From Ralstonia soli (GTDB lineage: Bacteria; Pseudomonadota; Gammaproteobacteria; Burkholderiales; Burkholderiaceae): a stretch of DNA of 64,000 nucleotides. Positions 1 to 35,409 of this stretch are shown here, in pieces. How positions within the stretch are numbered: the stretch's first letter is position 1; each line of letters begins with the position of its first letter. Position numbers and translations under genes: made by a program. The notes under the pieces are model-generated. The model was not told the DNA's origin and ran no database searches. It saw nothing but the letters and a program-made list of their open reading frames with translations. The stretch is from NCBI RefSeq assembly GCF_023955655.1, contig NZ_JAMXHT010000005.1, positions 311,462-375,461 on the forward strand, in the 5' to 3' direction.

Positions 1-715
1 TCGCAAGACCAAGTCCGACGAGATGGCCACGTACGCACCGCTGGTACGTCGCATTGCCAACCAGATGATGGTCAAGCTGCCGGCCAGCGTCGAACTGGAC
101 GACCTCATCCAGGCCGGCATGATGGGTTTGCTCGACGCGCTGTCGCGCTACGAGGAAACGCAGGGTGTGCAGTTCGAGTTCTACGCAGCGCAGCGTATTC
201 GCGGTGCGATCCTGGATGAACTGCGCGGCTCCGACTGGCTGCCGCGCGGCCTGCGCCGCAACGCGCGCACGATCGAGCAGGCGATCCAGAAGCTGCAGCA
301 GCAGAAGGGCCGCGCGCCCACCGAAACGGAAATTGCTGCGGCGCTGGGCATGTCGCTGGCCGATTACCAGAAGCAACTGGTCGACCTGCAAGGCAGCCAA
401 CTGCTGTACTACGAAGACTTCGACCGCGAAGACGCCGACGCCTTCATCGAAAACCGTGCCGCCGAGAACGACGCCACGCCGCTGGACCAACTGCTGGACC
501 ACGACCTGCGCGAATCGGTAGTCGCCGCCATCGAAGGCCTGCCCGAGCGCGAAAAGCTCATGATGAGCCTCTACTACGAGCAGGATTTGAACCTGCGCGA
601 AATCGGCGCCGTGATGGGCGTGTCGGAATCGCGCGTGTGCCAGATCCACAGCCAGGCGATTGCCCGCATCCGCGCACGGCTGCGTGACCGTGCATGGCTG
701 CCGACGCCGACCTGA
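1..715 (+). CDS. fliA: RNA polymerase sigma factor FliA (sigma-28), 5' end outside window
   Basis: This is the flagellar class-3 sigma factor, which directs RNA polymerase to late flagellar and chemotaxis promoters. The visible protein begins with the region 2 core (YAPLVRRIA, then VELDDLIQAGMMGLLDA), continues through region 3 (the PTETEIAAALGMS helix-turn-helix) and ends with region 4 (LPEREKLMMSLYYEQDLNLREIG and a recognition helix around SESRVCQIHSQA). An in-frame ATG sits at position 23, but the frame is open back to base 2 (RKTKSDE precedes it), and normal FliA proteins have a few more N-terminal residues, so the true start is probably upstream of the window. The product is otherwise full length and intact. 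A GC-rich hairpin follows the stop. Confidence 0.93.
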   Translation, partial: RKTKSDEMATYAPLVRRIANQMMVKLPASVELDDLIQAGMMGLLDALSRYEETQGVQFEFYAAQRIRGAILDELRGSDWLPRGLRRNARTIEQAIQKLQQQKGRAPTETEIAAALGMSLADYQKQLVDLQGSQLLYYEDFDREDADAFIENRAAENDATPLDQLLDHDLRESVVAAIEGLPEREKLMMSLYYEQDLNLREIGAVMGVSESRVCQIHSQAIARIRARLRDRAWLPTPT

Positions 716-744
716 TGTCGGCTTAGCCTCGACCTGCTAGAACG

Positions 745-1827
745 CTACTGCGCGGCCAGCGAGTCATCTCGTGGCCGCGCTTTGTCTTTGGGAAGTTCGG
801 TGACAAGGCGGGCGCTGGCGGCATCCCACACACGAGTCTCGCCATGGCGGAAGAGGAGGAAGCGCTCGGCCGGCACGTCAGCCGCCTTCAGTGCGTTGGC
901 CAGGTCGGTGATGGGCTGGTCGAGCGGCTCATCCGTCAGCTCGAACGTGCCCCAATGGATGCCCACGGCCTGCCGCGCGCTGATGTCGTGCATCACCTGC
1001 ACGGCCTCGGCTGGGTCGATGTGCTGCGCCTTCATGAACCAGCGCGGTTCATAGGCGCCCACGGCAATGGCTGCCACATCAAAGTGGCCGAAGCGCGCAC
1101 CGATGTCGCGCGTGTCCTGCGAATATCCCAGATCGCCTGAAAACCAGAAGCGCAGCCGCGGATGCAGCAGCGCCCAGCTGCCCCACAGCGTCTGGTTGCG
1201 GTCGTACAGGCCGCGTGCGGACCAGTGCTGCACGGCGCAGAAGTGGGCGGTAAAAGGGCCGAATTCCGCTTCGTCATCCCAGTCGAACGCACGCACGTTG
1301 GCGTTGTTACCGGTGAGGCGCGCGCCGCGTACGTTGCGGGCAAACCAGCGGTCGATGCCTAGCGGCACGAAAAACATCGGTGCGCCGCCCGGCTGTCGCA
1401 TCAGGGCGCGCACGCTGGCTTTGTCCAGATGGTCGTAGTGGTTGTGCGAAATCAGCACCAGGTCGATATGCGGCAACTGCTTGAGCGACAGGCCCGGCGG
1501 CTGGTGCCGCTGCGGCCCCGCAAACGGCAGCGGCGAGGCACGCTTGGAGAACACCGGATCGGTTAGCACGTTCAGCCCGTCGATTTGCAGCAGCAGCGTT
1601 TCGTGGCCGATCCAGGTCAACTGCGGCACATCGGGCGGCTGGTGTACGGCGGCCAGATTCGGCGCAACGCACGAGAGGTCTTGCGTGGGCGGTTTGGGCA
1701 GCTTCAGGCGCCGGCGCTCGCGCTGCCATTGCCAGAAGTCGCCGCCGGGGCGTGGGTGGGGATAGCGATTGCGGAAGCCATCCGGCGTGTGGTGGGGCTT
1801 GGACGGATCGTAGTGGGGATTTTTCAT
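745..1827 (-). CDS. NAPE-PLD-like metallo-beta-lactamase-fold hydrolase
   Basis: This is a zinc-dependent hydrolase of the metallo-beta-lactamase fold, in the branch that includes N-acylphosphatidylethanolamine phospholipase D and bacterial RomA-like proteins. The metal-binding motif LISHNHYDHLD, the preceding LTDPVFSKRASP, the later WFSGDLGYS, and the segment IAVGAYEPRWFMKAQHIDPAEA followed by GIHWGTF are all features I recognise from the NAPE-PLD family. The start is placed at the ATG of MKNPHYDP (1827); a longer open frame runs to 1944, but its first 39 residues look like non-coding translation. The length is 360 residues. No secretion signal is seen. The physiological substrate is unknown, a phospholipid-like ester being only a family-based guess. 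It is convergent with fliA and divergent from aroG. Confidence 0.85.
   Translation of the reverse strand: MKNPHYDPSKPHHTPDGFRNRYPHPRPGGDFWQWQRERRRLKLPKPPTQDLSCVAPNLAAVHQPPDVPQLTWIGHETLLLQIDGLNVLTDPVFSKRASPLPFAGPQRHQPPGLSLKQLPHIDLVLISHNHYDHLDKASVRALMRQPGGAPMFFVPLGIDRWFARNVRGARLTGNNANVRAFDWDDEAEFGPFTAHFCAVQHWSARGLYDRNQTLWGSWALLHPRLRFWFSGDLGYSQDTRDIGARFGHFDVAAIAVGAYEPRWFMKAQHIDPAEAVQVMHDISARQAVGIHWGTFELTDEPLDQPITDLANALKAADVPAERFLLFRHGETRVWDAASARLVTELPKDKARPRDDSLAAQ
750..787 (+). terminator. Hairpin after fliA, probable terminator
   Basis: A 9-bp perfect stem (GCGCGGCCA paired with TGGCCGCGC, 750-758 and 772-780) with a 13-base loop is followed by TTTGTCTTT. It lies between two convergent genes and overlaps the last codons of the minus-strand hydrolase. 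The T tract is interrupted, so termination strength is uncertain. Confidence 0.5.
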
Positions 1828-2040
1828 TTCACCATGGCGGTGGCATCCAGCGGAAAAAGGAGAGGCGCGGACGCTTCGGCTCGGTTGGGAAGCTGGCAGA
1901 GGGGCAGAATTCACCCAGATCAGGGCGGTGCGGCGGCTTCGCAAGGGTACTCCCCCGTGCCGGATTGCGCTTCATCACCCCATTGGCGGTCGACTTGTAG
2001 CACCATGCGGGTTGCCCATGCCTTTCGAACCTCGCTTTCC

Positions 2041-3159
2041 ATGATGCGTATAGACAACCCCCAGCATGACCAGGAAGTCGGCGTGGCCGACGCCACCCAA
2101 GACACGACCCGTATCGATGACGTACGCATCGGCGCGGTGCGCCCGCTGATCTCTCCGGCGCTGCTGCTGGATGAACTCCCGGTGTCGCCCGAGGTGCAGG
2201 CCCATGTCGAGGCGAGCCGCATCGCCATCACAAACGTCCTGAACGGGCGTGACGACCGCCTGATCGCTGTGGTCGGACCGTGCTCGATCCATGACCACGA
2301 TCAGGCGATGGAATACGCGCATCGGCTCAACGACGTCGCGCACCGGCTGCGCGATGACCTGCTGATCGTGATGCGCGTGTATTTCGAAAAGCCGCGCACG
2401 ACGGTCGGCTGGAAGGGCTATATCAATGACCCGCGCCTCGATGGCAGCTTCCGCATCAACGAAGGGCTGCGCCGCGCCCGCGAGCTGCTGCTGGAGGTCA
2501 ACGCGCTGGGGCTACCGGTCGCCACGGAGTTTCTCGATCTGCTCAGCCCGCAATACATTGCCGACCTGGTGGCCTGGGGCGCGATCGGCGCTCGCACGAC
2601 CGAGAGCCAGAGCCATCGCCAGCTTGCCTCGGGCCTGAGCTGCCCGATCGGCTTCAAGAACGGCACCGATGGCGGCGTGCAGATTGCGGCCGACGCAATT
2701 CTGGCGGCGCGTTCGTCGCATTCGTTCATGGGCATGACGAAGATGGGGATGGCCGCCATCTTCGAGACGCGCGGCAACAGCGATGCGCACGTCATCCTGC
2801 GCGGCGGCAAGAAGGGGCCGAACTACGATGCGGCGGCCATTGAAGAGACCGGTGCGATCCTGCGCAAGGCCGGGCTGCGCGAGCAGGTGATGGTCGATTG
2901 CTCGCACGCGAACTCGGGTAAATCGCACCTGAAGCAGATCGATGTGGCCCAGGACGTGGCGCAGCAGCTGTCTGCCGGCGAGCGCCGCATCACCGGTGTC
3001 ATGATCGAAAGCCACCTGGAAGAAGGGCGCCAGGATCTGAAGCCGGGCGTGCCTTTGCAGCGTGGGGTGTCGATTACCGACGCCTGTCTTGGCTGGGGCC
3101 AGACCGAGCCGGTGCTGGAGACGCTCGCTGCGGCGGTGCGAGCCCGGCGCGGCGGCTGA
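2041..3159 (+). CDS. aroG: 3-deoxy-7-phosphoheptulonate synthase (DAHP synthase, class I)
   Basis: It condenses phosphoenolpyruvate with erythrose 4-phosphate, the first step of aromatic amino acid synthesis. Recognisable class I motifs are VGPCSIHD, RVYFEKPRTTVGWKGYINDP, the GARTTESQ segment, GFKNGTDG, and VDCSHANSGK near the C-terminus. The start is uncertain: two adjacent ATGs at 2041/2044 give about 372 residues, while an upstream in-frame ATG at 2005 is possible; none has a strong ribosome binding site. Class I enzymes of this length are feedback-regulated by single aromatic amino acids, but which one cannot be read here. The gene is monocistronic, closed by a strong terminator. Confidence 0.93.
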   Translation: MMRIDNPQHDQEVGVADATQDTTRIDDVRIGAVRPLISPALLLDELPVSPEVQAHVEASRIAITNVLNGRDDRLIAVVGPCSIHDHDQAMEYAHRLNDVAHRLRDDLLIVMRVYFEKPRTTVGWKGYINDPRLDGSFRINEGLRRARELLLEVNALGLPVATEFLDLLSPQYIADLVAWGAIGARTTESQSHRQLASGLSCPIGFKNGTDGGVQIAADAILAARSSHSFMGMTKMGMAAIFETRGNSDAHVILRGGKKGPNYDAAAIEETGAILRKAGLREQVMVDCSHANSGKSHLKQIDVAQDVAQQLSAGERRITGVMIESHLEEGRQDLKPGVPLQRGVSITDACLGWGQTEPVLETLAAAVRARRGG

Positions 3160-3205: not shown

Positions 3206-3234
3206 GGCAGCAGTGTAAACTGCTGCCTTTTTTT
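3206..3234 (+). terminator. Rho-independent terminator of aroG
   Basis: An 8-bp perfect stem (GGCAGCAG and CTGCTGCC) around a TGTAAA loop is followed by seven T residues. It ends 12 bases before the next start codon, so the motor-like operon downstream must have its own promoter at or after the hairpin, or be reached by readthrough. Confidence 0.9.
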
Positions 3235-3245
3235 GGCACTCGAGC

Positions 3246-3965
3246 ATGGCGCACGACCCGCCGCGCACGGCACTCAGCGGCCCTGTGCTGATCCGTTTAC
3301 TTGCTCGCCTGGCGGACGTCGATGTGCGCGAATCGCGGCAATTGCTCTCAGACCGGCTGAGCCAATGGCTGAACTGGACTGACGCCATCACATTGTCGTC
3401 GGCACTGAGCACCCATCCGCCGGCCTTTGTTTCGAGCGGACGGCCCGTGGTGGCGGATGCAGAGGCCATGTGCGCTCGCCAGCGCACCGCGTTGACCAAG
3501 GCCATCGCCTCCACCTGCGCACCCGAGACACGACCGGGCGGAAAGGCGCGCCAGCCGATCCAGAGCGCGCCTGCGCCGCTGACGGTCGACTATGCGGACT
3601 ACCGGCAGCGGTACGTGCTGATGCAGCAGACCATGGAACTGGAGATCGGCACATTGCGCGATCGCCTGCGGCGGCTGTTGGCGGCGGCAACGCCCGACTT
3701 GGCGCGGCTTGCAGTGCTGGATGCCAGCATGGAGCAGGCGCTGGCCCCACGCGAGCGTGCGCTGCTGAGCACGATTCCGGCATGGCTTGGCAAACACTTC
3801 GAACGGCTGCGCGCTACCGAACCGCCTGCCGAGAGCCTATCTCCGGCCAAGTCGCGTGCGTGGCTGGAGGCGTTCCGCAAAGACATGCAGAGCGTGCTGC
3901 TGGCGGAATTGGATGTGCGTTTTCAACCGGTCGACGGGTTGCTTGCAGCCCTTCGGCCCAGTTAA
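3246..3965 (+). CDS. DUF3348 family protein, first gene of motor-like operon
   Basis: This 239-residue, soluble-looking protein matches the DUF3348 family, known to me from Burkholderiales next to DUF802 and OmpA genes. Residues 1-50 hold an LARLADVDVRESRQLLSDRLSQWL segment; the middle is rich in Ala, Arg and Pro; residues 110-235 look largely helical, with RQRYVLMQQTMELEIGTLRDRLRRLLAAATPDLARLAVLDASMEQALAPRERALLSTIP as the most structured part and a C-terminal LAELDVRFQPVDGLLAALRP. There is no signal peptide or membrane segment, so it should act in the cytoplasm. It starts just after the aroG terminator and is 15 bases from the DUF802 gene. A role as a cytoplasmic partner of the motor-like complex is inferred only from gene order. 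Confidence 0.8.
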   Translation: MAHDPPRTALSGPVLIRLLARLADVDVRESRQLLSDRLSQWLNWTDAITLSSALSTHPPAFVSSGRPVVADAEAMCARQRTALTKAIASTCAPETRPGGKARQPIQSAPAPLTVDYADYRQRYVLMQQTMELEIGTLRDRLRRLLAAATPDLARLAVLDASMEQALAPRERALLSTIPAWLGKHFERLRATEPPAESLSPAKSRAWLEAFRKDMQSVLLAELDVRFQPVDGLLAALRPS

Positions 3966-3980
3966 GCAGGACAGCGGGAC

Positions 3981-6083
3981 ATGATGTCCAGAAACCACCT
4001 GAATCTTTTCTTGTTTGCCGTTGGGCTGGCGGCCGTGGGCTGGATTGCCATCGGCTATCTCGTCGGCCTGAACCTGCTCGCGCTGGTCGTGACGATTGTC
4101 ATTGGGGCGGTCTACCTGGCGGGCGCGCAGGAGTTGCGCCGCTATCAGCAGGCCACGGGCGCCTTTGCAAACGCGGTTGCCAGTCTGTCCGAGGCGCCAG
4201 CGTCGCTTGGTACATGGCTTGAACACCTGCCGCCGAGCCTGCGCAATGCCGTGCGCCTGCGTGTGGAAGGTGAGCGCACCGCATTGCCTGCGCCTGCGCT
4301 GACGCCGTATCTGGTGGGCCTGCTCGTCTTGCTCGGCATGCTGGGCACGCTGCTCGGGATGGTGGTCACGCTCAATGGCACCGGCGCCGCGCTGGAGAGC
4401 GCAACCGACTTGCAGGCCATTCGCGCCTCGCTCGCCGCGCCGATCAAGGGGCTCGGGTTTTCGTTCGGTACCTCGATTGCCGGTGTGGCGACCTCCGCCA
4501 TGCTGGGGCTGCTCTCGGCACTGTGCCGGCGCGAGCGGCTGCAGGCGGTGCAGGCGCTCGACGCCAAGATCGCGACGACGCTGCGCGTTTTTTCGCACGC
4601 GCATCAACGTGAAGAGACCTTCAAGCTGCTGCAACGCCAGTCCGACACCATGCCGGCGCTGGTTGACCGGCTGCAGGCCATGATGGCTGCGCTGGAGCAA
4701 CAGGGCACGGCCAGCCACGAACGGCAGCTCGCCAACCAGCAGGCGTTTCTCGACAAGGCGGAACTCGCCTACAGCCAGCTCGCGTCTTCGGTGGGGCAGT
4801 CCTTGAGGGAGAGCGCCGCCGAGAGCGCCCGCGCGGCCAGTGCGGCGCTGCAGCCCGTTGCCGAGTCGACCATGGCGGGGCTTGCACGCGAATCGGCTGC
4901 CTTGCACGAGGCCGTCACGCAGGCGGTGCAGCGTCAGCTCGATGGCATGTCGACGCGCTTTGAAGCCGCAACCGAAACCGTGGCCGGCCATTGGAACCAT
5001 GCCCTGCAGGCGCAACAGCGCGCCAGCGAAACGTTGGTGGGCCACGTGGGTACTTCGCTGGAGCGTTTTGCCGCGACGTTCGAGCAACGCGCGGCCGGGT
5101 TGGTCGACAGCGTGTCCGCGCGGCTGGAGGCCACAGCCGGCGACCTGTCCGGCGCCTGGAGCGATGGGCTCGCACAGCAAGCACGTACCCATGCCGAACT
5201 GGCCAGCCAGAATCGACATGCACTGGAAGCGGCCACCGCCACGTTCGAGCAGCACGCCGCATCGCTGCTGCAATCGGTGGGGCAATCGCACACGGCCTTG
5301 CAGGCGGCACTGGAAGCGCGCGACCAGCAGCGCCTCGCAGCCTGGACGGATGCGCTCGGCGCCACCGCCGCTGCGCTGAGCCAGGCCTGGGAAGCGGCGG
5401 GCAACGACACCGCGCGTCGCCAGCAGGCCATTTGCGATGCGCTGGCGCAAACCGCGAACGATATCTCTGCGCAAACGCAGGCCCACGCCAATGGCACCAT
5501 CGCGGAGATCTCGCGCCTGGTGCAGACGGCATCGGAAGCGCCCAAGGCCGCGGCTGAAGTGGTGGCCGAACTGCGCCAGAAGCTGTCCGATAGCATGGTG
5601 CGCGATACGGCCATGTTGGAAGAGCGCACGCGCCTGCTCGGCACGCTGGAGACGCTGCTCGACGCCGTGAACCATGCGTCCACCGAGCAACGCACAGCGG
5701 TGGATGCGCTGGTCGCGACATCGGCCGGTTTGCTCGAACGGGTCGGCACCCGGTTCACGGATCATGTTGAGGCCGAAACCGGCAAGCTCAGCACCGTGGC
5801 CGCACAAGTCACCGGCAGCGCCATCGAGGTGGCCAGCCTGGGCGAGGCGTTCGGGGCGGCCGTTCAGCTGTTCGGCGCATCGAACGACAAGCTGGTGGCA
5901 CATCTGGAGCGCATTGAATCCGCGCTGGACAAATCCCTCACGCGCAGCGACGAGCAGCTTGCCTACTACGTGGCACAGGCACGCGAGGTGGTGGACCTGA
6001 GCATGCTGTCGCAGAAGCAGATTCTGGAAGATCTGCAACGCCTGGGCGGTCATCGGACCGTGACAGGAGTTGCCGCAGCATGA
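3981..6083 (+). CDS. DUF802 protein: MotA/ZorA-like inner-membrane subunit with long helical tail
   Basis: The 700-residue protein has two hydrophobic segments near the N-terminus (about residues 8-27 and 30-48), a cytoplasmic stretch, then two more (about 109-131, GLLVLLGMLGTLLGMVVTL, and 158-181, GLGFSFGTSIAGVATSAMLG). This spacing and the G-x-L-G-T-x-x-G and T-S-x-x-G signatures are those of MotA/TolQ/ExbB/ZorA stator proteins. Residues from about 200 to the end form a roughly 500-residue Ala/Glu/Gln/Thr-rich helical tail containing several DUF802-type repeats (for example around ESAAESARAASAAL, LEATAGDLSGAWSDGL). A MotA core with a very long intracellular tail is also the architecture of ZorA of the Zorya defence system. 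The downstream OmpA gene overlaps its stop by ATGA, implying coupled translation and a shared complex. The function is unproven. Confidence 0.82.
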   Translation: MMSRNHLNLFLFAVGLAAVGWIAIGYLVGLNLLALVVTIVIGAVYLAGAQELRRYQQATGAFANAVASLSEAPASLGTWLEHLPPSLRNAVRLRVEGERTALPAPALTPYLVGLLVLLGMLGTLLGMVVTLNGTGAALESATDLQAIRASLAAPIKGLGFSFGTSIAGVATSAMLGLLSALCRRERLQAVQALDAKIATTLRVFSHAHQREETFKLLQRQSDTMPALVDRLQAMMAALEQQGTASHERQLANQQAFLDKAELAYSQLASSVGQSLRESAAESARAASAALQPVAESTMAGLARESAALHEAVTQAVQRQLDGMSTRFEAATETVAGHWNHALQAQQRASETLVGHVGTSLERFAATFEQRAAGLVDSVSARLEATAGDLSGAWSDGLAQQARTHAELASQNRHALEAATATFEQHAASLLQSVGQSHTALQAALEARDQQRLAAWTDALGATAAALSQAWEAAGNDTARRQQAICDALAQTANDISAQTQAHANGTIAEISRLVQTASEAPKAAAEVVAELRQKLSDSMVRDTAMLEERTRLLGTLETLLDAVNHASTEQRTAVDALVATSAGLLERVGTRFTDHVEAETGKLSTVAAQVTGSAIEVASLGEAFGAAVQLFGASNDKLVAHLERIESALDKSLTRSDEQLAYYVAQAREVVDLSMLSQKQILEDLQRLGGHRTVTGVAAA

Positions 6084-6742
6084 GCGGCATGGGCGACGAG
6101 TTCGACGGTGGCGTAGAGGCGAGCGCGCCCGTCTGGGCTGCGTTTGGCGATCTGATGTCGGTGCTGCTGGGCGCCTTCGTGCTGATTCTCGTGGGCGTGA
6201 TCGGCGTGCAGCTGGAGCTGTCGTCCAAGCTGGCGAACGAGGTCAAGCAGCGCGAGGCCGAGGCGCAGCGCCGCAAGACGCTGGAGCAGGCGCTGGCCGG
6301 ACCGCTGGCGGCGGGGCGCGTGACGCTCGTCAATGGGCGGATCGGCATCAATGGCAGCGTGCTGTTCGCGCTCAATTCCGACCAGTTGCAGCCCGGGGGG
6401 CGCACGCTGCTGAAGAGCCTGGCGGGGCCGCTGTCTGCCTATCTCAAGTCGCGCGACGAGATCCTGATGGTGAGCGGCTTTGCCGACGACCAGCAGGTGA
6501 GGGCGGGCAACCGCCAGTTTGCCGACAACTGGGAACTATCGGCCAAGCGCGCGCTGACGGTGACACGCGCGCTGATCGATGAAGGCATTCCCGCTGCAAG
6601 CGTGTTTGCGGCGGCGTTCGGGTCGGAGCAGCCCGTGAGCTCCAATGCCGACGACGAGGGCCGTGCCAAGAACCGGCGTGTGGAGATTGCACCCGTGCCG
6701 AGATCGGCGGCATCGAATGGCGGACGCGGTGAGCAGCACTGA
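6080..6742 (+). CDS. MotB/ZorB-like OmpA-domain membrane protein
   Basis: This 220-residue protein has one N-terminal membrane segment (about residues 18-44) that contains an Asp at residue 24 (FGDLMSVLLGAF), in the position where MotB, ExbD and ZorB carry their proton-binding Asp. A short charged helix (residues 45-75) leads to an OmpA-like peptidoglycan-binding domain (about 85-205) with the typical NWELSAKRALTVTRAL and DDEGRAKNRRVEI motifs. The layout predicts a periplasmic domain anchored to the cell wall and driven by a MotA-like partner, which is the preceding overlapping gene. Its end overlaps the start of the DUF2894 gene by 26 bases. Most OmpA-type lipoproteins lack such a charged membrane helix, which argues for the stator reading. 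Confidence 0.85.
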   Translation: MSGMGDEFDGGVEASAPVWAAFGDLMSVLLGAFVLILVGVIGVQLELSSKLANEVKQREAEAQRRKTLEQALAGPLAAGRVTLVNGRIGINGSVLFALNSDQLQPGGRTLLKSLAGPLSAYLKSRDEILMVSGFADDQQVRAGNRQFADNWELSAKRALTVTRALIDEGIPAASVFAAAFGSEQPVSSNADDEGRAKNRRVEIAPVPRSAASNGGRGEQH

Positions 6743-7331
6743 CCCGAGCATCGCGGCCCAGCTCGACCGCCTGCGTGAGCAAGGCGTGGAGCGGCGCGAC
6801 CCTATTCGTTTCCACTTGATCGCGGCCCTGCATCGGCGCGCCGCCAGTCAGACCGGCGAGGCACGCCGTGTTGCGGACGAACGGCTGCGCGCATTGTTGG
6901 CGGCAGGCGCCGACAGTCTGGATCCGACAACTTCCACCGCCTCGTCCGAGGCGGAGCGTGGCGCACTGGCGGTGTTGCTTGCAGACATGGCCCGTCAACG
7001 CCGCGGCGTGGGCGGGGTGGGCGGCGTGTATCCGGATCTGGGCATCCTCGAAGACTTTCGCGAAACGTGGTCCAGGCTCAGCGCCGAGAAACAGGTACGG
7101 CAGTCGGTGGATCAGGTGCCGACCAACGCCGGCCCGTTGAATTCGCAAAGCCTGGTGCACCGGTCGCTCGCCTTGATGCGGCAGGTCTCGCCGGAATACC
7201 TGCGGCAGTTTCTGGGGTATGTCGACGCGCTGTCCTGGCTGGAGCAGATGGGCGGCGACAGCGCCATCACGCCCCAGGATGCGCCGCGCACCGGCGGCGG
7301 CAGGAAGAGCACGCGAAGCAAGTCACGCTGA
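6717..7331 (+). CDS. DUF2894 family protein, last gene of motor-like operon
   Basis: This 204-residue protein of the DUF2894 family begins at the ATG of MADAVSSTDP, inside the end of the OmpA gene, so it is translationally coupled. Residues 12-75 are helical and charged (AAQLDRLREQGVERRDPIRFHLIAALHRR...). A GVGGVGGVYPDLGILEDFRETWSRLSAEKQVRQSV motif follows, then LVHRSLALMRQVSPEYLRQFLGYVDALSWLEQM. The tail is Gly, Lys and Arg rich. There is no membrane segment or signal peptide. The function is unknown; its constant partnership with DUF3348, DUF802 and OmpA genes suggests a cytoplasmic accessory of the same complex. Confidence 0.8.
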   Translation: MADAVSSTDPSIAAQLDRLREQGVERRDPIRFHLIAALHRRAASQTGEARRVADERLRALLAAGADSLDPTTSTASSEAERGALAVLLADMARQRRGVGGVGGVYPDLGILEDFRETWSRLSAEKQVRQSVDQVPTNAGPLNSQSLVHRSLALMRQVSPEYLRQFLGYVDALSWLEQMGGDSAITPQDAPRTGGGRKSTRSKSR

Positions 7332-7588: not shown

Positions 7589-8350
7589 ATGCCGCAAGAC
7601 CAGACGGTCTTGCTGGCTGATGCCCGGATCGCGACATTTCCCCCACGCTCCACCTCCTCACCCTCCTCCATACGCCATCGCGCCTCGCCCCGCTTCCTGC
7701 TGGGGGAATCGGCGCGACAGATCAGCGGAAGCGCGGCCTGGCTCGCGCAACTGCCATCGGGCGCCGTTGTCGGTATCAACGACTACCGGCTTGCAGGCGA
7801 TACCGCCGGGCTGGCTGACCTGCATCTGCAACGCGGTTACCTGCACGGACGCTGGACGCACGGGCAGGTACGCATCGGCGTGCGCCCGGCAGCCGTGGGC
7901 GGCCATGCCGGGGATTTCCACTACGCGGTAGTCGAGCATTGGAATGTGCCTGTGCACCAGCAGACGGTGCGCGGCAGCGAAGGGGTATTCACCACGCCGA
8001 CCGTCATGGGCGGCGCCGGACTGTCGGCCACGGTGGTCGGCAAGCTCGACATGGTCTGGTGCAACGGCGTGCTTTGCATTGCGGGCAAGCTCGACCTCTG
8101 CGTGGGCGGGGCAGCGGCCAGTCTGCTGATTCGCCAGTGCCAGCCGACCCTTGGCGTGGCTTGCCAGGGCGGCAGCCTGTTTGGCGGCAGCACGTATCGG
8201 CTGATTCCGGCTGTTACCGAAAGCGGGATGTTGCGCTGCGTCATCCTGTACTGCGTGCGGTTCGATTCGGGCGCGCTTTATCAAGGAGTTGGGATGTTCG
8301 AAGCGCACACGCATTTCGGAACGCAAAATATGTACACAAAAAACGATTGA
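7589..8350 (+). CDS. Unknown 253-residue protein, Cys-containing
   Basis: I do not recognise this family. Coding is supported by strong G/C third positions, especially from residue 50 onward, and by an AGGAA ribosome binding site five bases before the ATG. The first 45 residues are low complexity (Ser, Pro, Arg). Residues 55-130 contain many Gly, His and aromatic residues (HLQRGYLHGRWTHGQVRIGVRP, HAGDFHYAVVEHWNVPVHQQ), and residues 150-230 hold a series of Cys (WCNGVLC, LCVGG, RQCQPTLGVACQGG, LRCVILYC), suggesting disulfides or metal binding. No clear signal peptide is seen. It stands alone, followed 147 bases later by the permease gene. Confidence 0.55.
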   Translation: MPQDQTVLLADARIATFPPRSTSSPSSIRHRASPRFLLGESARQISGSAAWLAQLPSGAVVGINDYRLAGDTAGLADLHLQRGYLHGRWTHGQVRIGVRPAAVGGHAGDFHYAVVEHWNVPVHQQTVRGSEGVFTTPTVMGGAGLSATVVGKLDMVWCNGVLCIAGKLDLCVGGAAASLLIRQCQPTLGVACQGGSLFGGSTYRLIPAVTESGMLRCVILYCVRFDSGALYQGVGMFEAHTHFGTQNMYTKND

Positions 8351-31039: not shown

Positions 31040-32296
31040 TCAATCGTCAAAGTCCCACATCCGATGCAAATCGAGCTGGAGGCGACTGTCTGCCTCCCAC
31101 GCGTCCACGTGAGCGAGGCGCTCCGCCAGCACTGCGTCGGCCAGACTGCGGCGTGCCGCAAGAAGTTCAGCGAGGCCCGACTCGCCTGCGCGATACGCGC
31201 GCGTTGCACGGTCAGAAGCGCTTCTCTGCAACGTAACGGCTTCCATCTGCGCTTGCGCGCTCGTTCGTTTGCCTTGCAAATTGCCATAGAGCACATCAAA
31301 TTCCGCGCCTAGCCGACGCTCCGAACCGAGCCTGCGCCGCGCAGCCGCTTCCGCGTCGGCGGCGGCTGCCACGGCCGCCGAGCGCCGATGCGCGGACCCG
31401 AGCGGCATCGCAACGCTCACGCCCATGATGCGCTCCGCACCGCCGCGCTCCACCGTGACGAACATACCGACAGTCGGGTCGGGCCGGCGCTCCAGATCTG
31501 CGCGCTTGGCCATCTGCAGCGCCTGGGCTTCCTCTGCCATGGCTAGCCGGTATTCGTGGCTATCTTGGATGTACCGGATGCGCAATCGATCTGGTGGATC
31601 TTGCGGCAACGCCGGCAGCGCGGCATCGGCGCCGAATGCGGGATGACCCAGGCCAGGGAACCGGGCTTGCAGCTCGGCCTGCGCTGCTTGTTCGGCTGAG
31701 ACAGCCATTGCCAGCGCAGCTTGCATGCGGGCGCGATCGGCCGCGGCGAGTTCGCCGTCCAGGCGTGAGGCATCGCCCAGTTGAACCCGCCGTGCCGTCA
31801 GTGTCGCCAAATCGGCGGCCGCCTTGGCATTCTCCTGCGCAGCCTGGCGGGCTTGCCCCGCGCGCACGGCGCCAAACCAGAGGGCCAAGATCTGGCGCGA
31901 TGCCTCGTGACGTGCGTCTTTCACGGCAAGCTGGCCGGCCTCGGTCGCCGCATCGGCAAGGTGACCGTCAGCTTGCGCTTTGCCCCATAGCCGCAAGGAC
32001 CGCTCCACAGCGATCTGCCCTTCGGCATGGCGCTCGGAAGGGTCGCGCACCTGGCGCCCTTGACCAATTGCGCGCACCACGGTTTCCGCGGTGCCGGCGC
32101 GGATGCCTTCGGCACGGGCCAGAGCGGCGTCGCGTCGGGCCTCCGCCGTCAATACGTCGGGCGACTGTGCAACGGCCTCGCGCACCGCGTTCTCCGCCGG
32201 CAGATAGCTCGGCGAAAATTGCGCCTGCACTGCGGTACTCCAAAACAGCACTGCGCTGACGCCTGCCAATGCGATGCGAAATAGATCCAACCTCAT
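31040..32296 (-). CDS. TolC-family outer-membrane channel of RND pump (CusC/CzcC-like)
   Basis: A 418-residue outer-membrane factor with a signal peptide (cleaved near AVQAQ, residue 25) and two OEP repeats of long Ala/Arg/Glu-rich helices (about residues 35-215 and 240-410), for example LPAENAVREAVAQSPDVLTAEARRDAALARAEG. It forms the outer exit duct for the pump. Its start overlaps the stop of the CusA-like gene by four bases. It is shorter than CusC (about 457) and closer to CzcC in length. Confidence 0.9.
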   Translation of the reverse strand: MRLDLFRIALAGVSAVLFWSTAVQAQFSPSYLPAENAVREAVAQSPDVLTAEARRDAALARAEGIRAGTAETVVRAIGQGRQVRDPSERHAEGQIAVERSLRLWGKAQADGHLADAATEAGQLAVKDARHEASRQILALWFGAVRAGQARQAAQENAKAAADLATLTARRVQLGDASRLDGELAAADRARMQAALAMAVSAEQAAQAELQARFPGLGHPAFGADAALPALPQDPPDRLRIRYIQDSHEYRLAMAEEAQALQMAKRADLERRPDPTVGMFVTVERGGAERIMGVSVAMPLGSAHRRSAAVAAAADAEAAARRRLGSERRLGAEFDVLYGNLQGKRTSAQAQMEAVTLQRSASDRATRAYRAGESGLAELLAARRSLADAVLAERLAHVDAWEADSRLQLDLHRMWDFDD

Positions 32297-35200
32297 TGCG
32301 AATCTCCTTGCCCAGCGGCCGCGCGCGACCGAGGCAACCCAAAGCGTTCAAACAGCAGGGGCAGAAGCAGCAGCGTCAGCGCGGTGGAGGAGATCAGCCC
32401 GCCAGATACAACGATCGCCAGCGGCCGCTGAATCTCCGACCCTGGTCCGCTCGCCAGCAGTAACGGAATCATCCCCAGTGCGGTAATGCAGGCCGTCATC
32501 AGGACGGGCCGCAAGCGGTCTCGCACGCCCGCGCGTACCGTCTCCGCCATGCTCAACCCAGACTCCAGCAGCGTATTGAAGTGCGAGACCAGTACCACTC
32601 CGTTGAGCACCGCGATCCCGAGCAACGCGATGAAGCCGACAGAGGCGGGTACCGACAGGTATTCGCCCGATATCCGTAACGCCGCAATGCCACCCACGAG
32701 TGCGAACGGAATGTTGGCGACCACCAGCACCGCCTGTCGCAGTGAGCGGAACGTCAACATCAGCAGCAGAAAGATTGCGCCCAGGGCCAACGGCACAACC
32801 AATGCCAAGCGCGCCGCGGCGCGTTGCTGATTCTCGAACTGGCCGCCCCACACCACGCGCAACCCTTTCGGCAGCGTGCCGATACCGCCAACGGCTGACT
32901 GCGCTTCCTGCACGAAACCGGCCAGGTCCCGACCATCAACGTTGGCCTGGATGACGGCAAACCGGGCGCCGTCTTCATGATTGATGCGCACGGGCCCATC
33001 CACGCGCTCGATACGTGCCAGAGACGTGAGCGGCCACGCTTTGCCGTCCGGTGCCGTCACCAGAAGGTTGGTCAGATTCTCGGGTGCCTGCCGCAAGCCC
33101 GCGCCGCCACGCAAGATCAACGGTGTGCGGACAATGCCCTCGGGCACCACGCCAATCCGGTCGCCTTCGATCAGCGCGCGCAGTTGAGCCTGCAGCGCAT
33201 CACCGGAAAAACCGGCGTGGCCAACCGCAGCCCTGTCGAGCGACACCTTCAGGTATTGCACGCCGCTGTTGCTGGGCGCAATCACCTCAGCCGCACCGGG
33301 GATGGTGCGGACCTTGGCAGCGATGGCCTGTGCCGCTGCATCGATGGAGGCAAGGTCATTTCCGAAAAGCTTGATGGCAACGTCGCCACGTGTGCCGGTC
33401 AGCATTTCCGAGACGCGCATTTCAATGGGCTGAGTGAACCCGTAGATGACGCCGGGAAAGCGTTCCATCACGCGCCGGATCGCCGCAGCGATGTCCTCCT
33501 TGCTGCCGCGCCACTGATCCTTGGGCTTGAGCACCAGGAACGTATCCGTTTCGTTCAGGCCCATCGGATCGAGGCCGAGATCATCCGAACCCGAGCGTGC
33601 GACGATCGAACGAATTTCCGGCACCTCCTTGAGCAATGCCTGCTGCACACGTTGGTCCATGTCGAGCGACGCTGCAAGCGAAACCGACGGTGCTTTCTGC
33701 AACTGCACGATCAGGTCGCCCTCATCCATCGTCGGCATGAACGTCTTGCCGACCGACATGTACAACACCACGGCCAACGCCAACGCCGCCCCTGCGAGAC
33801 CGAACACGATGCGGCGATGCGTTGTCGTCCATGCCTGAACTCGCGCAAAACCGTTCGCGACCTTGCGCATCAACCAAGGCGGCTCATCCGCATGCACGAG
33901 CAAGAGCAAGGAAGCGAGCGCCGGGACCACCGTAAAGGCAATCACTACGGAAGACGCCAGCGCCAGCACGATGGTGAGCGCCACTGGCCCAAACAGCTTG
34001 CCTTCCAGCCCCTGCAATGACAGCAGCGGCAGAAACACGATGGCGATAATCGACACGCCCGACAGCATCGGTACCGCCACCGTTGCCACAGCGTGGCGGA
34101 TGACCGCACCGCGTAGCGCGGGATCTGTCTTGTGGTCTTGCGCGCGCGCCATGGCCGTCTCGATGTTTTCGACCACGACTACGGCGGCGTCCACTAGCAT
34201 GCCCAGTGCAATAGCAAGGCCGCCAAGGCTCATCAGGTTGGCCGTCAGGCCCACATAGCGCATCAGGAGGAAGGTCGCCAGCATCGACAGCGGTAGCGTG
34301 GCCGCCACCACTAGCGCCGCACGCACCCCACCCAGGAACAGGTACAACGTGATGACGACCAGCACGCTGGCTTCGATCAGGGCGCGCACCACGGTATTGG
34401 CCGCACGCGTCACCAGCTCGCCGCGGTTGTAGAAGACGTGGGTCGACATGCCTTTGGGCAACTGCGGGCCGAGCGCATCGAGCCGCGCCTGCACCGCCTC
34501 CACCAGTTTGCGAGCATCGCTGCCGCGCAGGCCCAGCACCAGCCCCTCCACCGTCTCACCATTGCCATCTTTGCTGACAGCGCCGTTGCGGGTTGCCTCA
34601 CCCAGCCGCACGGTTGCCACATCGCCGACCGTGACCGCGGGCGCGGAAGACAGGCTCTGTGCCGGGACCACGACAATCGCACGCAAATCGTCCAACCCAC
34701 GCACGCCGCCTTCGACCCGCACGACCCAATGCTCGTCTCCGCGATCAAGCCGTCCGGCCCCGTCGTTACGGTTGTTGGCGTCCAGTGCCAGGCGCAATTG
34801 CTCAAGGGTGATGCCGCGTGCGCGCAGCCGTGCGGGGTCGGGGGTCACCTCATAGCTGCGCACCTCGCCGCCCAGGGCATTAACGTCTGCTACGCCGGCA
34901 ACGGTGCGCAGCGCCGGCCGGATCACCCAATCCAGCACGCGGCGCCGCTCGGCCAATGAATGGCCATCGCCCTCCACCGTAAACATGAACATCTCGCCCA
35001 ACGGTGTGGTGATGGGTGCCAGGCCGCCCACAGCCGTCGACGGCAGATCGCGCGCCAAGCCGGCTAGACGCTCCGACACTTGCTGGCGCGCCCAGTAGAC
35101 GTCCACCCCTTCTTCAAAATCGACGGTCACGTCGCTGATGCCGTATTTGGACACCGAACGCACGATCGTCTTGTGCGGCAGGCCGAGCAGCTCCTGCTCG

Positions 35201-35409
35201 ATCGGCGTCGAGACACGCTGCTCGACCTCCTCAGGGGTCATGCCAGGCACCTTCAGCACAACCTTGACCTGCGTCGGCGAGATATCGGGAAACGCGTCGA
35301 TCGGTAGGTTCAGATACGCCCAGACGCCGGCCGCAGCGAGTACGCCAGCCGCGATCAGCACCAGCACGCGTTGGCGCAGCGAGAACTCAATCAGGCGGGG
35401 CAACATCAC
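32293..35409 (-). CDS. Heavy-metal-efflux RND pump, CusA/CzcA family
   Basis: A 1,038-residue inner-membrane proton antiporter that drives metal export. It has the N-terminal LPIDAFPDISPTQVKV motif, two large periplasmic loops and 12 membrane helices. The helix-4 motif GGLAIALGMLVDAAVVVVENIE keeps one Asp and the VEN Glu but has Ile-Ala-Leu-Gly where the Zn/Co/Cd class has Asp-Phe-Gly, resembling CusA-like or unassigned members. The metal therefore cannot be named with certainty; Cu/Ag or an unusual divalent substrate is possible. The genes for adaptor and channel overlap it on both sides by four bases. Confidence 0.9.
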   Translation of the reverse strand: MMLPRLIEFSLRQRVLVLIAAGVLAAAGVWAYLNLPIDAFPDISPTQVKVVLKVPGMTPEEVEQRVSTPIEQELLGLPHKTIVRSVSKYGISDVTVDFEEGVDVYWARQQVSERLAGLARDLPSTAVGGLAPITTPLGEMFMFTVEGDGHSLAERRRVLDWVIRPALRTVAGVADVNALGGEVRSYEVTPDPARLRARGITLEQLRLALDANNRNDGAGRLDRGDEHWVVRVEGGVRGLDDLRAIVVVPAQSLSSAPAVTVGDVATVRLGEATRNGAVSKDGNGETVEGLVLGLRGSDARKLVEAVQARLDALGPQLPKGMSTHVFYNRGELVTRAANTVVRALIEASVLVVITLYLFLGGVRAALVVAATLPLSMLATFLLMRYVGLTANLMSLGGLAIALGMLVDAAVVVVENIETAMARAQDHKTDPALRGAVIRHAVATVAVPMLSGVSIIAIVFLPLLSLQGLEGKLFGPVALTIVLALASSVVIAFTVVPALASLLLLVHADEPPWLMRKVANGFARVQAWTTTHRRIVFGLAGAALALAVVLYMSVGKTFMPTMDEGDLIVQLQKAPSVSLAASLDMDQRVQQALLKEVPEIRSIVARSGSDDLGLDPMGLNETDTFLVLKPKDQWRGSKEDIAAAIRRVMERFPGVIYGFTQPIEMRVSEMLTGTRGDVAIKLFGNDLASIDAAAQAIAAKVRTIPGAAEVIAPSNSGVQYLKVSLDRAAVGHAGFSGDALQAQLRALIEGDRIGVVPEGIVRTPLILRGGAGLRQAPENLTNLLVTAPDGKAWPLTSLARIERVDGPVRINHEDGARFAVIQANVDGRDLAGFVQEAQSAVGGIGTLPKGLRVVWGGQFENQQRAAARLALVVPLALGAIFLLLMLTFRSLRQAVLVVANIPFALVGGIAALRISGEYLSVPASVGFIALLGIAVLNGVVLVSHFNTLLESGLSMAETVRAGVRDRLRPVLMTACITALGMIPLLLASGPGSEIQRPLAIVVSGGLISSTALTLLLLPLLFERFGLPRSRAAAGQGDSQ

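Follow-up and report, generated by a model that had tools for sequence, protein, structure and literature searches.

The 64,000-nucleotide stretch of the Ralstonia soli genome analysed here (the window) raises the question of what a membrane motor pair does in one operon with two proteins of the DUF3348 and DUF2894 families. Positions 3246-7331 of the forward strand indeed hold a tight four-gene operon in the order DUF3348, DUF802, OmpA, DUF2894. The first gene (3246..3965) encodes the DUF3348 protein (Pfam 4.3e-83; PADLOC-DB ZorG3, 2.3e-91) and is followed by zorA3 (3981..6083; PADLOC ZorA3, 1262 bits), with a 700-residue product made up of a MotA-like core, a putative helical shaft and a conserved tip, in which Pfam recognises two copies of DUF802 (3.5e-30). 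An ATGA overlap joins zorA3 to zorB3 (6080..6742), encoding a 220-residue protein with an OmpA-like peptidoglycan-binding domain (Pfam OmpA, 1e-17; NCBIfam PRK09040, 395 bits; PADLOC ZorB3, 1.3e-117). The DUF2894 gene (6717..7331; Pfam 2.5e-50; PADLOC-DB ZorF3, 6e-72) completes the operon, its longest open frame beginning at 6645. Of the 38 loci fetched, 37 hold all four genes in one common order and strand, and the last ends at a contig edge. Among 80 named-genome loci the same holds for 74, with the six exceptions running into contig ends. It holds too for 6/6 loci belonging to other orders within the class. This survey bears out the conserved operon of the preliminary description, and speaks against DUF802 genes occurring mostly without the OmpA partner. 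At one locus (L063, genome G003) ZorA3 is spread over two open frames of 547 and 279 residues, either a true break or an assembly error. Another (L227, genome G236) is a naturally broken operon, in which what lies between DUF3348 and the ZorA tail, including the membrane core, is gone and the upstream element is kept.

The PADLOC profiles ZorG3, ZorA3, ZorB3 and ZorF3 are matched by all four proteins, and the operon can therefore be securely assigned to Zorya type III, a known anti-phage system. According to the accessible text of Payne et al. 2021 (PMC8565338), in which type III was defined as ZorA, ZorB, DUF3348 and DUF2894, a Stenotrophomonas nitritireducens copy cloned in E. coli reduced plaques for at least one phage. 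That text names DUF3348 ZorF and DUF2894 ZorG, names which are swapped in PADLOC-DB. Hence the partnership with two unknown genes is not novel, as both proteins were already named Zorya type III components. No ZorC, ZorD or ZorE had been noticed nearby, and none of the 10 neighbouring proteins scanned matched a Zorya profile. Phage defence is the best-supported function since a homologue was assayed; a search of the open-access literature found no phage assay of the window copy or of any Burkholderiaceae copy. We consider it quite probable that this Ralstonia locus serves anti-phage defence as a Zorya type III operon, including the motor mechanism proposed below. Three features go beyond the published system: the near-core distribution in the family, a private promoter-like element and growth of the tail by tandem units. 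No prior account of the near-core spread, the upstream element or the tail repeats was found in the open-access literature.

A profile of ZorA3 residues 1-240 (26 sequences) matches the solved type I ZorA chain 8vvn_C (E=2e-5), and the alignment places the GT and TS motifs of the two proteins in line. Together with the conserved residues, this match points to a MotA-like membrane core at residues 1-200. Within the GxLGTxxG motif, G119, G122, T123 and G126 are invariant in 37/37 aligned homologues and L121 is kept in 36/37; all three named residues of TSxxG, including T164 and S165, are likewise invariant in 37/37, in a set that leaves out the broken L063 and the cut L093. ZorB3 has a single membrane helix carrying Asp24 (codon 6149-6151), which is invariant in 39/39 aligned OmpA proteins, and the protein matches chains of MotB, among them 3khn, 6ysf and 8ucs. 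The ion-pathway residues of ZorAB motors (Asp; Thr/Ser) are thus present in ZorB3 and ZorA3. A Pfam scan of ZorA3 did not match the MotA family. The earlier proposal of a ZorAB-type motor pair is upheld by the ZorA3 and ZorB3 profiles, the 8vvn_C match and the motifs, the likeness of the core to the MotA/ExbB/ZorA folds being one of sequence profile. In types I and II, defence requires the same ZorB Asp, along with the peptidoglycan-binding domain and the tail of ZorA, according to the part of PMC11890865 available.

Beyond the core, the window ZorA3 carries two DUF802 repeats in the putative shaft (residues 324-430; 4950..5270, forward strand; Pfam) and a distal tip (residues ~505-690; 5493..6050, forward strand) defined by invariant columns in 37 homologues. 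Across 113 proteins, with residues counted from a common start and six cut or broken ones having been dropped, ZorA3 length ranges from 629 to 1231 residues with a median of 792; raw open-frame lengths include start extensions, of which the 1302 residues of L130 are one. Burkholderia proteins differ by exact 80-residue steps (777, 857, 937, 1017), and in three cases checked length was equal between strains of one species. TRF, at periods of at least 100 bp, detected tandem arrays in 66 of 115 proteins, and all periods are multiples of three; the set contains L063 and L174, which are truncated, and five genomes present twice, and short-read assemblies can collapse such repeats. No tandem array was detected by TRF in the window ZorA3. 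The units mainly measure 51-131 residues: 87 mainly in Paraburkholderia but also in Cupriavidus and Caballeronia, 80 in Burkholderia and C. metallidurans, 69 in Ralstonia and one distant locus, 51 and its multiples in other Paraburkholderia, and 131 in Achromobacter and kin. Arrays stop at least 175 residues short of the C-terminus in 66/66 proteins, and begin at residue 429 or later in 63/66.

With a helical period of 3.636 residues, obtained by a fit over the range 3.45 to 3.75, each of the five main unit lengths corresponds to whole turns; 11 of 20000 random sets did as well. Adding a sixth unit of 62 residues, or taking all eleven listed units, left 0 of 20000 random sets as good, where the 62- and 95-residue units were derived from self-comparison and the lengths are partly dependent, as the units of 69 and 80 could be related. 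Averaged over 113 ZorA3 tails, the hydrophobicity spectrum peaks at 3.64 residues. The simplest reading of these sequences would be a straight helical shaft that has been lengthened in register; against it stand the whole-tail spectra of L103 and L090, with peaks elsewhere (3.23 and 3.58 respectively). We propose that the conserved tip may serve as the docking site for DUF3348 and DUF2894.

DUF3348 is predicted to be all-helical (AlphaFold2, mean pLDDT 85), and DUF2894 to be helical at low confidence (pLDDT 67). Fold comparison of the two models gave no trustworthy match, and neither protein matched an enzyme family, including nuclease or helicase, in Pfam or NCBIfam. As the folds matched nothing clear and the DUF2894 model is weak, the roles given to these proteins are guesses. 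The last 20 residues of DUF2894 have a net charge of +2 to +9 in 113/113 proteins (median +6), compared with C-terminal medians of 0 for DUF3348, -1 for ZorA3 and +2 for ZorB3. This basic C-terminus suggests that the protein may touch DNA entering the cell, or else acidic lipid. Residues 4-69 of DUF3348 weakly match positions 164-226 of the model for the regulator PenR (NCBIfam, E=0.0012), probably by chance. The DUF2894 profile also exceeds its cut-off in a Corynebacterium glutamicum control genome, where Zorya III was unexpected.

The distribution of the operon was determined in even samples of family, order and class genomes. DUF802 is found in 15 of 16 genomes of the genus, and in every one of the 15 that are near-complete (at least 90% complete, at most 5% contaminated), as well as in 209 of 299 family genomes. 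By genus code the counts are 15/15 in g1, 41/41 in g12 (Burkholderia by tree position), 30/31 in g11, 10/11 in g25, 34/40 in g21, 36/41 in g3 and 33/41 in g10; g13, with genomes of about 2 Mb, has 0/41. The Zorya III operon is near-core in the family and near-fixed in its larger-genome genera. A control with type I ZorA, which misses type II, gave strong matches in a patchy 19 of 299 family genomes at a cut of E < 1e-20, placed in the gap before 6.8e-11. Further out, DUF2894 occurs in 13/250 genomes of the order, four of them from the own family including the own genome, and in 8/370 of the class, six lying outside the order and two being the own genome or close kin. Viral contigs yielded 18 pattern matches, none of which is a relative, and phage records OmpA-type matches only, all below 60% identity. 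Plasmid records gave 27 matches at 60% identity or more, the replicons being between 0.37 and 3.5 Mb in size. The preliminary description placed the four genes together in other Burkholderiales, and this spread agrees with that. It also held a core function to be as likely as defence, which stands in changed form: the distribution is near-core, and defence comes in by way of the published homologue assay.

Descent of the operon looks largely vertical. In a quick tree of the ZorA3 N-terminus and ZorB3 (110 rows, SH-aLRT support only), the window and 12 genus rows form one clade (100). Two Dyella rows and one Rhodanobacter row fall within mostly Burkholderia-group sets (96, 99), so transfer between orders has occurred. 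A methyltransferase gene lies directly upstream of the operon in 13/13 genus-mates, with an HI0933-like gene as the next neighbour in 12/13, and a DUF2252 gene lies downstream in 9/13. The window setting differs from that of the 13 genus-mates, the old flanks being split over two contigs: the methyltransferase gene is on C12 and the DUF2252 gene on C27, ~268 kb from the operon. Instead, flhA-flhF-fliA precede the window operon, together with genes for a metallo-beta-lactamase-fold protein and a DAHP synthase (Pfam). This setting behind the flagellar cluster (FlhA, FlhF-like GTPase, FliA) was noted at 23-3159 of the window and 13990-19715 of L050. Homology to the genus-mates starts ~40 bp ahead of the start codon, which suggests that this copy and the element ahead of it travelled as one. 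Among the 10 neighbours scanned in the window genome there was no clear defence profile, the three weak matches all falling on the FlhF-like GTPase; mobile genes were sought among the Pfam-scanned proteins. Loci L194 and L196 have metabolic neighbours. A mobile-looking copy on a 366 kb Aquabacterium plasmid (L195, 9072-13231) lies near an integron integrase, IS elements and an AbiEii-like gene, and in L243 (genome G727) the operon begins ~30 bases past a tRNA-Arg gene (8055-8162, ARAGORN), a possible integration site. Elsewhere in the window, 32293-35409 encodes a 1038-residue protein that resembles, by a motif, a heavy-metal RND pump.

These data bear on whether the Burkholderiaceae operon could primarily be a housekeeping envelope machine, sensing peptidoglycan or cell-wall stress, with phage protection a side effect of overexpression. 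Its retention across the family, complete in the near-complete genus genomes (15/15) and in g12 (41/41), would fit such a role, as would the constant upstream neighbour in 13/13 genus-mates, the lack of a confirmed match in viral contigs and the 10 neighbours in which only the FlhF-like GTPase drew weak defence matches, three in all. Distribution, neighbours and largely vertical descent are together unlike those of a roaming defence island. However, the operon becomes sparse further out (13/250 in the order, 8/370 in the class), has crossed to Rhodanobacteraceae, and is missing from some large genomes (5/41 in g3, 6/40 in g21), while one copy is plasmid-borne, close to an integron integrase, and another directly follows a tRNA gene. 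Furthermore, a type III operon did lower plaquing, as described in the accessible text of PMC8565338. We therefore regard a primarily housekeeping role as rather unlikely. A flagellar or motility-linked stator is suggested by FHIPEP (FlhA), the SRP54-type, FlhF-like GTPase and FliA upstream of the window copy, but is very improbable: FliA was not matched in 18 other 9-20 kb stretches around the operon (13 of them from genus-mates), the 13 genus-mates have a different neighbourhood in common, and ZorA3 has no MotA Pfam match. Anti-phage defence is retained as the preferred reading.

A promoter-like element, GTGTAAACT-N5-CTTTTT, was recognised by its conservation across loci at 3213..3232 on the forward strand. 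Within it, TAAACT (3216-3221) can be read as a -10 box, and the T-run sits at the would-be transcript start. The element was spotted by eye in an alignment of 14 genus loci and afterwards sought elsewhere. After removal of five same-genome duplicates, 106 loci reach far enough upstream; among these, GTGTAAACT followed by 4-7 bases and the T-run is present in 92, a variant in 10 and neither in four (L067, L089, L090 and L092, of which L067 has the GTGTAAACT part and a weak T-run). The patterns used gave no element in L240-L243 from other orders; by eye, L240 has TTGTAAAATCAATGGTTTTT. Between the element and the first in-frame start codon, a spacing of 33 bases is the most frequent (40/92 loci) and is also that of the window. 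The own genome of 5.73 Mb holds a single copy, and GTGTAAACT-N4-6-CTTTTT gave 111 matches, one each in 111 of 299 family genomes, compared with 2 for the reversed pattern. Of these matches, 89 fall no more than 4 kb from a listed ZorA3/DUF802 position, and each of 20 that were fetched stands before DUF3348. The G236 match stands before the broken operon copy and that of G227 lies on a different contig of a fragmented assembly, leaving 110/111 confirmed at the operon. The strict element is thus present in 110 of 209 DUF802 genomes; the 99 others belong mostly to genus codes g3, g10 and g11, and three such loci viewed (L228-L230) revealed near-variants in two and none in one.

Element variants retain TA-x-A-x-T, which fits a -10 box; one of them, ATGTAAAAT, is present at two loci in another order. 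The nine constant motif columns are so by selection and on their own are no proof. Upstream columns -30 to -10 mostly hold less than 0.7 bits, and by column information in the aligned loci no -35-like block stands out. The same element could instead be the hairpin of an intrinsic terminator or attenuator: in the window it sits within a 10-pair stem with a T-run, five pairs form in 10/77 sequences where just 34 of 2000 shuffles reach as many, and a sigma-70 consensus scan of the window upstream region returned no promoter. This is an improbable alternative, given that the first four pairs form in 20/77 distinct sequences with 739 of 2000 shuffled arms as good, that the constant part is the loop rather than the stem, and that TAxAxT is retained by the variants, as in a -10 box. 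The operon seems to be transcribed from its own promoter. At some UTP-sensing promoters, polymerase slips at a T-run by the start; as speculation, the T-run at the expected start could cause slippage here.

By analogy with the solved types I and II, we infer that five ZorA3 and two ZorB3 chains would form an ion-driven rotary motor, with a 5:2 assembly and ion flow also in type III. Upon phage disturbance, ZorB3 would grip peptidoglycan, and ions passing Asp24 would cause ZorA3 to turn or shift, again as for types I and II. The ZorA3 tail, from its sequence, may act as a straight helical shaft conveying the membrane signal to the conserved tip, where DUF3348 and DUF2894 would act in place of ZorC, ZorD and ZorE, the basic end of DUF2894 possibly touching incoming DNA (or acidic lipid). 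More tentatively, Burkholderiaceae Zorya III might have turned from a transient defence module into a resident, largely vertically inherited machine with a once-per-genome promoter and an in-register shaft, stopping phage DNA without cutting it. The straight, proline-poor shaft would carry signal or torque, and species could reset its length by whole-turn units such that motor and tip faces stay in register. Output would then run through two small helical proteins of no recognised enzyme family, one of which might bind DNA through its basic tail.

Defence systems are generally portrayed as patchily distributed and mobile. This operon is near-fixed in the larger-genome genera, and so is well suited to asking at what point immunity turns into core physiology. 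Further points of interest are a motor-linked defence with no known nuclease, shafts that form a natural series of lengths and a one-copy-per-genome promoter-like element. In comparison with the tested Zorya type III, as far as the accessible text of PMC8565338 describes it, the window operon has the same four proteins and likewise lacks ZorC, ZorD and ZorE; the tested operon is from Stenotrophomonas, whereas that of the window is from Ralstonia. With Zorya types I and II, as covered by the available literature, it shares the ZorB Asp, the ZorA GT and TS motifs, the peptidoglycan-binding domain and the long cytoplasmic tail, but the window operon is without ZorC/ZorD or ZorE. A membrane core and an OmpA-like domain are shared with the MotAB flagellar stator, from which the window system differs in its four-gene operon, its long repeat-bearing tail and its ZorA3 without a MotA Pfam match.
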